DNA from: Nitrosophilus labii
GTDB lineage: Bacteria > Campylobacterota > Campylobacteria > Campylobacterales > Nitratiruptoraceae
Assembly (NCBI RefSeq): GCF_014466985.1
Contig: NZ_AP022826.1
Coordinates: 1,240,001 to 1,304,000 of the forward strand
Length of the DNA stretch: 64,000 nucleotides
Reading direction: 5' to 3'
Part shown: piece after piece, positions 13,615-20,262 of the stretch
Numbering within the stretch: the first letter of the stretch is position 1
How the letters are laid out: each line of letters starts with the position of its first letter
Position numbers and translations under genes: made by a program
Notes under the pieces: generated by a model
Database searches by the model: none
Told to the model about the DNA's origin: nothing
The model's input: the letters and a program-made list of their open reading frames with translations, nothing else

Positions 13615-13733
13615 CGCCTGGCGCCGACCTACTTTTCCACACCCGGAGGGTGCAGTATCATCAGCGATGCGGAGCTTAGCTTCTAGGTTCGAAATGGGTC
13701 TAGGCGTTTCCTCCGCTCTATAGGCACCAGGAC
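13615..13733 (-). rRNA. rrf: 5S ribosomal RNA
   Basis: The ends pair as expected for 5S helix I (CCTGGTGCC at the 5' end with GGCGCCAGG at the 3' end), and the internal block with GGTTCGAAATGGGT on the plus strand is the complement of conserved 5S sequence. Length is about 119. It is the last gene of the operon and lies about 470 bases after the 23S, much farther than usual, because of the element at 13935-14199. Ends are accurate to a few bases. Confidence 0.93.
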
Positions 13734-13774
13734 AGAAATACTCAATCTTCCTTGGAAGACTCAGTATTTCTGTA

Positions 13775-13865
13775 ATTTGGAATTAGGAATTGGGAATTTG
13801 GAATTGGAGAAATTTTTTTCTAATTTCTAGTTCCTAATTCCCAATTACTAATTACTAATTACTAT
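13775..13865. repeat. Inverted heptamer array A (23S-5S spacer)
   Basis: The left arm (13775-13808) reads in 7-base steps AATTAGG, AATTGGG, AATTTGG, AATTGGA. The right arm (13821-13865) reads TTCCTAA, TTCCCAA, TTACTAA, TTACTAA. The arms are complementary over most of their length, so the transcript can form a long hairpin. Confidence 0.85.
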
Positions 13866-13878
13866 TTTTTAAAGAAAT

Positions 13879-13933
13879 CAATCCATTGTTTATAGTCTAA
13901 GGTTAGAAGTATCTCAGTAAGGCGGCAGTGCGT
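13879..13933 (-). other. Pre-23S processing stem, 3' strand
   Basis: Two blocks pair with blocks on the 5' side of 23S. Positions 13909-13933 match the complement of 17191-17215 at 24 of 25 bases. Positions 13879-13902 match the complement of 17308-17331 at 23 of 24. Together they form the double-stranded stalk that RNase III normally cuts to release 23S. Confidence 0.88.
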
Positions 13934-13934
13934 A

Positions 13935-14199
13935 GGGTCTCTCTATAGAGAATTTATATCTCATAGAAAAGAGAGTAATAGTAAGATTTAGTAAAAAATT
14001 TATGAAGGCTTATAAATATAAGTAAAATAAATTTTTTGCTAAAGATTGCTGTTAATCTCTTTTCCCTATGGGCTTTAAAATTTCTATTTATCTATTTCGT
14101 TATTGCTCCTCGTTTATGATTACATAAACTTCGTCGCAATTCCTTATATCTAAATGAAATTTTAAAGCTATGAGGTATAAATCCTCTATAGAGAGACCC
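13935..14199 (-). other. 265-bp hairpin element inserted next to the 23S 3' end
   Basis: The ends form an inverted repeat, 13935-13966 with 14168-14199, identical at 30 of 32 bases. Inside is a second perfect 13-bp stem (14072-14084 with 14156-14168) and an apical hairpin holding the boxes ATTGCTCCTCGT (14102-14113) and CGTCGCAATT (14132-14141). The element separates the 23S 3' end from its own processing stem. It shares length, architecture and boxes with the intervening sequence in the 16S gene at 19334-19601, but the two apical boxes come in the opposite order. No protein is encoded. Confidence 0.85.
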
Positions 14200-14200
14200 T

Positions 14201-17177
<2,977 letters not shown>

Positions 17178-17190
17178 ACTTATTCTAAAG

Positions 17191-17331
17191 CGCACTGCCG
17201 CCTTACTCAGATACTTTTTCGTAATTCGTTGCTCGTAACTCGTAATTTGAATTACTTTTACGAATCATATCTTACACTATTGAGTAAGGCTGAAATTGTT
17301 TCTTTACCTTAGACTTTAAACAATGGATTGT
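17191..17331 (-). other. Pre-23S processing stem, 5' strand, with heptamer array B
   Basis: Inner (17191-17215) and outer (17308-17331) blocks pair with 13879-13933. Between them, 17220-17247 reads CGTAATT, CGTTGCT, CGTAACT, CGTAATT, another 7-base array, followed by a weaker inverted copy up to about 17265. Confidence 0.82.
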
Positions 17332-17393
17332 CAAATAACTCTTTAGACTATTAAAGTCTAAACCAAATCTTCCTTTGAAGACTTGATTTAAAC

Positions 17394-17477
17394 TTTGGAA
17401 TTGGGAATTTGGAATTTGGAATTGGGCTGTTTTTGTTTCTTTTTCACTAATTCCTAATTACTAATTCCCAATTACTA
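17394..17477. repeat. Inverted heptamer array C (tRNA-Ala to 23S spacer)
   Basis: The left arm 17394-17426 is built of GGAATTT- and GGAATTG-type 7-mers. The right arm 17446-17477 is built of ACTAATT-, CCTAATT- and CCCAATT-type 7-mers. It is nearly the same consensus as array A on the other side of 23S. Confidence 0.83.
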
Positions 17478-17556: not shown

Positions 17557-17561
17557 TTCCT

Positions 17562-17636
17562 GGTTGATAGTTGATGGTTTATGGTTTATAGTTCTTATCC
17601 TCTTTACTATCAACTATCTACTATTAACTATCAACT
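17562..17636. repeat. Inverted heptamer array D (between the two tRNAs)
   Basis: The left arm 17562-17593 reads GGTTGAT, AGTTGAT, GGTTTAT, GGTTTAT. The right arm 17606-17636 reads ACTATCA, ACTATCT, ACTATTA, ACTATCA. The arms are complementary and would fold into a hairpin between the tRNAs in the precursor. Confidence 0.87.
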
Positions 17637-17656
17637 GCAAAGCTTTGCTTTACAAT

Positions 17657-17732
<76 letters not shown>

Positions 17733-17738
17733 TTATTT

Positions 17739-17820
17739 GGTGAATGGTTGATGGTGAATGGTTGATGGTTGACAGCAATGTACTATCAACTATCAACTAT
17801 CAACTATTCACTATCAACTA
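17739..17820. repeat. Inverted heptamer array E (16S to tRNA-Ile spacer)
   Basis: The left arm 17739-17773 reads GGTGAAT, GGTTGAT, GGTGAAT, GGTTGAT, GGTTGAC. The right arm 17782-17820 reads ACTATCA three times, then ACTATTC and ACTATCA. It is the most regular of the arrays. Confidence 0.88.
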
Positions 17821-18015: not shown

Positions 18016-19823
<1,808 letters not shown>

Positions 19824-20044: not shown

Positions 20045-20062
20045 GAGCAACTAAATAAAGCT

Positions 20063-20262
20063 AATAGTCTATAGACAATAGACTATAGTAAATAACCTAT
20101 AGTCGGTAGTCGCTAAACCGCAATCAAATATATTAAGCTACAAACCTTATTTAAAAATCTATAATCTAAAATCAGACGATATACAATAGACTTTAAACTT
20201 CAAACTTTAGACTTTAGACTTTAGACTTTAAGCTTGAAACTTTAAGCTCTTAACTTGAAACC
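20063..20262. repeat. Heptamer arrays F upstream of the rRNA promoter
   Basis: First block: TAGTCTA, TAGACAA, TAGACTA, TAGTAAA, TAACCTA, TAGTCGG, TAGTCGC (20063-20112). A middle stretch reads AATCTAT, AATCTAA, AATCAGA. A last block reads ACTTTAA, ACTTCAA, ACTTTAG three times, ACTTTAA, GCTTGAA and so on (20190-20262). The 20045-20338 gap holds nothing else that I recognise apart from a small CCGC/GCGG hairpin near 20290. Confidence 0.8.

Follow-up and report, generated by a model that had tools for sequence, protein, structure and literature searches.

Does the 265-bp hairpin that lies between the 3' end of the 23S rRNA gene and the 23S processing stem of Nitrosophilus labii belong to the rRNA operon, or is it a mobile element that has taken up residence there? 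The stretch of DNA analyzed here, 64,000 nucleotides in length and termed the window, contains an rRNA operon on the minus strand, in the order 16S, tRNA-Ile plus tRNA-Ala, 23S, and 5S. The organism, described as 'Nitratiruptor labii' HRV44 and now named Nitrosophilus labii, has a published chromosome of 1,990,315 bp (PMC7728183), and its genome carries three rRNA operons. A preliminary description of the window had regarded the hairpin, here called E23, as kin to a hairpin inside the 16S gene, here called E16, and had interpreted the pair as a small mobile or recombining RNA hairpin and not as chance spacer DNA.

RESULTS

Structure of the element at the 23S 3' edge

E23 has exact ends (GGGTCTC...GAGACCC; boundary sequences, GGGTCTCTCTATAGAG...CTCTATAGAGAGACCC) and is located between the 23S 3' end at position 14201 and the processing stem (Table 1). 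Its RNA fold had an energy of -102.9 kcal/mol, compared to -42.1 ± 4.5 kcal/mol for dinucleotide shuffles (z = -13.4), and comprised an outer stem of ∼32 bp, a hairpin A with a perfect 13-bp inner stem, a CCCAWAGGG box, and a hairpin B. These results confirmed both the placement and the architecture given in the preliminary description. The outer stems had also been thought to match their sites. This did not hold for the 23S stem, which matched a family terminal repeat (GGGYRCCTCTA) and not its rRNA site; that of E16 was the only outer stem without a known family end.

Table 1. Positions of the rRNA genes and of the parts of the two elements in the window
Feature	Position	Strand	Basis or remark
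5S rRNA gene	13616-13731	-	rRNA operon
23S processing stem, 3' arm, directly outside E23	13907-13932	-	inverted repeat, fold
E23, MITE-like hairpin element	13935-14199	-	265 bp; operon 1 copy identical; R2, 106.7 bits
E23 outer stem, 3' arm/terminal inverted repeat	13935-13967	-	same inverted repeat as 5' arm
E23 hairpin B, most conserved part; paired AATCTTT/AAATCTT loop strands	13966-14065	-	covariation
E23 conserved CCCATAGGG box	14064-14072	-	alignments, R2 match
E23 hairpin A, 13-bp inner stem plus two stacked GAGGR/ACGAA internal loops	14073-14168	-	fold, alignments
E23 outer stem, 5' arm/terminal inverted repeat, GGGTCTCTCTATAGAGG...	14167-14199	-	94% complementary inverted repeat
23S rRNA gene	14201-17176	-	Rfam RF02541
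23S processing stem, 5' arm	17191-17216	-	inverted repeat, fold; operon 3 element directly inside equivalent arm
16S rRNA gene carrying E16	18017-19822	-	Rfam RF00177
E16, second family member, in 16S helix 10 region	19333-19602	-	270 bp; identical in 3/3 operons; R2, 70.9 bits at 19352-19475

As E23 is outside the mature 23S rRNA, it is a spacer insertion and not an intervening sequence, a term for inserts within mature rRNA. The element did not match any Rfam family at gathering score, including the group I and group II intron models, and a known RNA family was rejected on this basis. A coding or homing insert was rejected because E23 is too small for an ORF; 265 bp of near-complete self-pairing leaves no room for the S23 protein. 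A search for a phage source gave no match. A chance spacer palindrome was rejected by the shuffles and by the covariance models described below.

The spacers and flanks of the operon were rich in A+T-rich repeats with a 7/14-nt period (GGAATTGGGAATTT, CTAATTACTAATTA, ACTATCAACTATC, and CTTTAGACTTTAGA). These were present at positions 13762-13864, 17214-17260, 17373-17477, 17561-17819, and 20060-20250, and several formed inverted pairs.

Relationship of the 16S and 23S elements

E16 also folded far more stably than its shuffles (z = -15.1) and had the outer stem, hairpin A, CCCAWAGGG box, and hairpin B in common with E23. Alignment of the two elements gave a local score of 42 versus 21.0 ± 2.9 for shuffles and a global score of 34.5 versus -13.5 ± 6.3, with 0 of 500 dinucleotide shuffles reaching either score. 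Two covariance models were utilized: R1, which covers the CCCAWAGGG box and hairpin B, and R2, which was constructed, with its alignment guided by R1, from 35 copies taken outside this genus, in other genera and in Bacteroidota. Over the 64-kb window, R2 detected E23 with 106.7 bits (E = 7e-25) and E16 with 70.9 bits (E = 9e-16); besides these and a 43-bit match to the opposite strand of E16 (19459-19583, plus strand), nothing was below an E value of 0.2. The antisense match suggests that the element is pseudosymmetric, and hairpins A and B look like the products of an ancient inverted duplication.

The proposed kinship was therefore borne out, with no drop of the likeness to background in shuffled alignments, and convergence of A+T-rich hairpins was contradicted by both the R2 E values and the alignments. 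The 'swapped' boxes required a different reading. The GAGGR/ACGAA internal loops of hairpin A are present as two stacked loops in E23 and as one in E16 and, on our reading of the alignments, this difference in number would fit the apparent swap.

E16 is a hairpin insert inside an rRNA gene that is missing from relatives and in these respects is an intervening sequence. Other 16S intervening sequences were not detected in family-bearing genomes, the 16S being contiguous in all 24 from which this gene was recovered.

Occupied and empty sites in rRNA operons

Searches of the N. labii genome with R1 gave six strong matches, and all six intact copies were within rRNA operons; three were inside the 16S genes, and the other three bordered 23S, two of them at its 3' edge and one at its 5' edge. 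The 3'-edge elements of operons 1 and 2 were identical in sequence. In operon 3, the 3' edge was empty (GGCTTAACTAATTACAATGCACTGCC) and a 301-bp version with 81% identity was found at the 23S 5' edge (chromosome positions 1531455-1531755), having GGGTGCC../..GGCACCC ends and a 30-bp tandem duplication in hairpin B. Comparison of the outer stems of the 3'-edge and operon 3 versions detected double compensating changes at three positions. Folding of the joined flanks indicated that the two 23S edges are one place in the precursor, where the terminal helix of 23S meets the processing stem. Insertions were in the sense orientation at all three site types.

The 23S 3' edge and the 16S helix 10 site were empty in every relative with readable sites, and R2 gave no match on the rRNA operons of relatives. 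Insertion-free sites, which the preliminary description had proposed to look for, were thus present both in the same genome (operon 3 3' edge) and in relatives. A clear target-site duplication was not detected at any of the three rRNA insertions, window copies included, and these insertions may have arrived, or have been trimmed, by another route.

A dispersed family outside rRNA

Relatives outside rRNA were detected by BLAST in genomes of the same genus. R1 identified two intergenic copies in G003 and at least eight in G004, and the element was present in two of four other same-genus genomes. Across the order Campylobacterales, 105 of 399 genomes, representing 31 of 87 genera, had R1 matches (E ≤ 0.001), so that the covariance search extended well beyond the two copies first noticed. 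When 84,980 species were scanned by pattern, those returned were for the most part Campylobacterales, together with several Bacteroidota. Eight Bacteroidota genomes had 2 to 12 copies each, and three genomes with pattern matches only had none. A type IX secretion sorting domain, which is typical of Bacteroidota, was encoded beside one of these copies. The family hence spans two phyla, with misbinning of MAGs as the remaining caveat. An rRNA-specific element was rejected by the intergenic homologues; residence in rRNA operons is peculiar to N. labii, other genomes having their copies mostly between genes. The family is apparently unnamed and previously undescribed, as no description was found in Rfam or in the mostly open-access literature searched by sequence strings and by topic. 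A further copy was observed in an unannotated gap of NZ_CP087125.1 (95747-95921), deposited as a linear 395-kb plasmid of Sulfurovum mangrovi.

Partial copies were also detected. G004 had 58 exact terminal-repeat motifs, compared to 0 for a reversed control, and these were mostly at contig ends; the assembly therefore breaks within these repeats. The N. labii genome had four isolated terminal-repeat motifs elsewhere, one joined to half an element, and we read these as relics. Isolated element ends of 12 to 15 bp were observed upstream of genes at N. labii chromosome positions 994757 and 1380147 and at G002:C114:27533, with one end at an orthologous place in two species; these are either relics or an independent motif.

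Signatures of mobility

Among 86 distinct copies with both ends, the mode of length was 264 to 278 bp and most had terminal inverted repeats, as MITEs do, in the form of ∼32-bp stems. The element also resembles MITEs in being short, multicopy, intergenic, and without an ORF. None of 74 copies was inside an ORF, and there was no preferred orientation of these copies relative to genes (>>, 18; <<, 20; <>, 8; ><, 7). The ends of the 86 copies fell into three classes, GGGCACCTCTAA (GGGC), AACCTGAGTTCGAC (AACC), and GAGACCACTGCACA, plus singletons, and one core thus bears several unrelated terminal repeats. Direct repeats of exactly 3 bp flanked 24 of 33 AACC-class copies (shuffle mean, 3.4; maximum, 11), and direct repeats of exactly 4 bp flanked 9 of 24 GGGC-class copies (shuffle mean, 2.1; maximum, 7). 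Target-site duplications of fixed length, a further trait of MITEs, were therefore present in the family but not at the window copies themselves. In seven copies, the terminal repeats were close to perfect but were unique to the copy and resembled none of the main end classes, which suggests that ends have been replaced repeatedly.

Judged from these sequence signatures, the family is mobile. The preliminary view of a small mobile hairpin was upheld in this respect and refined in another: terminal inverted repeats and target-site duplications are DNA-level signatures, and we therefore regard the element as DNA based, with an RNA form that also folds, and not as a mobile RNA. An autonomous partner was sought as a 400- to 3,500-bp pair of any of the three end types; none was found in the fetched loci or in complete genome G024, a limited sample. 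A surviving autonomous partner is not present for every MITE. As this sample yielded no transposon sharing these ends, the term 'MITE-like' is used.

Conservation of the core

In an alignment of 53 distinct copies, 93.1% of cells could pair, compared to 67.8% after shuffling; two-sided changes were present at 29 of 34 pairs, and the covariation score was 0.611 versus ≤0.143 for slid controls. The 35-copy set without this genus gave the same covariation result. Unpaired motifs were also conserved, namely, CCCAWAGGG, AATCTTT/AAATCTT, and GAGGC...ACGAAG, the last occurring in order in 30 of 77 hairpin A regions versus 0.8 in shuffles. Conservation of this strength is unusual for a pure MITE.

DISCUSSION

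We consider it highly probable that E23 is a non-autonomous MITE-like DNA transposon, moved in trans and resident in rRNA operons, whose hairpin would be removed from the transcript. The element would be a near-symmetric multibranched hairpin core (∼265 bp) bounded by ∼32-bp terminal inverted repeats. Because both the end classes and the target duplications differ, several transposases, a different one for each end class, would move the one core in trans. In N. labii, the element may have entered 16S a single time, gene conversion then carrying the insert to every operon. It would also have entered an edge of 23S, the 3' edge in operons 1 and 2 and the 5' edge in operon 3, with conversion homogenizing the copies of operons 1 and 2. 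Intact copies elsewhere in the genome were presumably lost; our preferred reading is that conversion among operons would preserve the rRNA copies while single copies decay.

The transcript is predicted to fold as an isolated long helix. Next to 23S, this helix would be a third arm at the point where the end helix meets the processing stem; in 16S, that of E16 would extend helix 10. RNase III, whose cutting of other intervening sequences has been described (PMC4990558, PMC11270868), would cut the ∼32-bp outer stems, and trimming would then remove the arm. A 23S-edge copy would leave with the spacer, giving normal 23S ends, and removal of E16 would leave the 16S split at helix 10. The element may be tolerated in rRNA because RNase III probably excises the hairpin, and may persist in these operons because its transcript folds into an isolated, removable helix.

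The very strong covariation, the conserved internal-loop motifs, and the sense orientation at all three rRNA site types could also be explained if the core were a functional structured RNA with a regulatory or processing role, spread through use by the host, to which the terminal repeats were secondary. We find this unlikely: the 74 copies lack an orientation preference relative to genes, the element is present in just two of the four other same-genus genomes, and the N. labii genome contains decayed remnants. Furthermore, the antisense strand also fits R2 (43 bits), and structure alone is hence no proof of RNA function. A cis-regulatory RNA, suspected from five same-genus sense copies upstream of genes, was unsupported by the 74-copy orientation count.

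The placement of E23 exactly at the junction of the 23S end helix with the processing stem, and the preservation of outer-stem pairing by double changes between operons, would be expected of a host rRNA-processing device, that is, a normal 23S maturation stem of this operon that is hairpin-shaped by happenstance. However, such a device should not be missing from the 3' edge of operon 3 and from all relatives read, and intergenic homologues in other genomes contradict it, which makes this reading very improbable. We give practically no credence to a classical rRNA intervening sequence that has no kin outside rRNA and resembles the 16S insert through convergence of A+T-rich hairpins. The length, A+T richness, hairpin, and 16S helix 10 site are as in Campylobacter and Helicobacter (PMC3335488), but the R2 E values and the alignments relative to shuffles argue against this reading, and the many non-rRNA relatives effectively refute it.

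Within the preferred reading of a MITE-like transposon, the family poses a second question, why the ends vary around a single conserved hairpin core. It is possible, although we rather doubt it, that the core is itself active, as a structured module (folded single-stranded DNA or RNA) that is accepted by unrelated transposases, trades ends, and crosses phyla. If so, the family would represent a novel type of mobile structured element, from which some rRNA intervening sequences would descend. A published account lists transposition as only one hypothesis for the origin of such sequences, which it considers to 'remain unclear' (PMC4990558). Non-rRNA relatives that bear terminal repeats and target duplications can now be shown for a 16S intervening sequence and for two inserts at 23S edges; the question of origin is therefore directly testable, and N. 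labii offers a direct example of how bacterial rRNA intervening sequences can arise.

The family has in common with bacterial MITEs its short length, lack of an ORF, terminal inverted repeats, target-site duplications, multiple copies, and intergenic location. It differs in the presence of a single multibranched core under several unrelated terminal-repeat classes in two phyla, in the retention of a covarying structure, and in that a cognate transposon was not seen in the limited sample. Rickettsia palindromic elements are small palindromic repeats that also enter RNA genes, and Neisseria NEMIS repeats are small palindromic repeats whose transcripts are cut by RNase III; compared by description only, the present family differs from both in its larger, multibranched core and in the swapping of its ends. 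The 23S intervening sequence of Coxiella and Leptospira, which carries the S23p ORF and for which an origin as a transposition remnant is one published hypothesis (PMC4990558), is like E16 a hairpin-bounded insert in an rRNA gene, but the present family lacks an ORF, occupies another site, and has identifiable terminal repeats and target duplications. The intervening sequences of Campylobacter and Helicobacter are, like E16 and E23, A+T-rich hairpins with a long end stem, and their 16S insertion is, like E16, in the vicinity of helix 10, but the present family has relatives outside rRNA and E23 is at the edge of, not inside, the mature rRNA. The order scan with R1 gave no match in two families, which we guess to be those of Campylobacter and Helicobacter, and kinship with their intervening sequences is not implied. 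A parallel in arrangement is H. fennelliae, in which a 355-bp 16S intervening sequence at position 175 and a 271-bp 23S intervening sequence have 26 bp in common and were read as possibly derived from a common ancestral element (PMC3335488); as in N. labii, kin copies are present in the 16S and 23S of one species.
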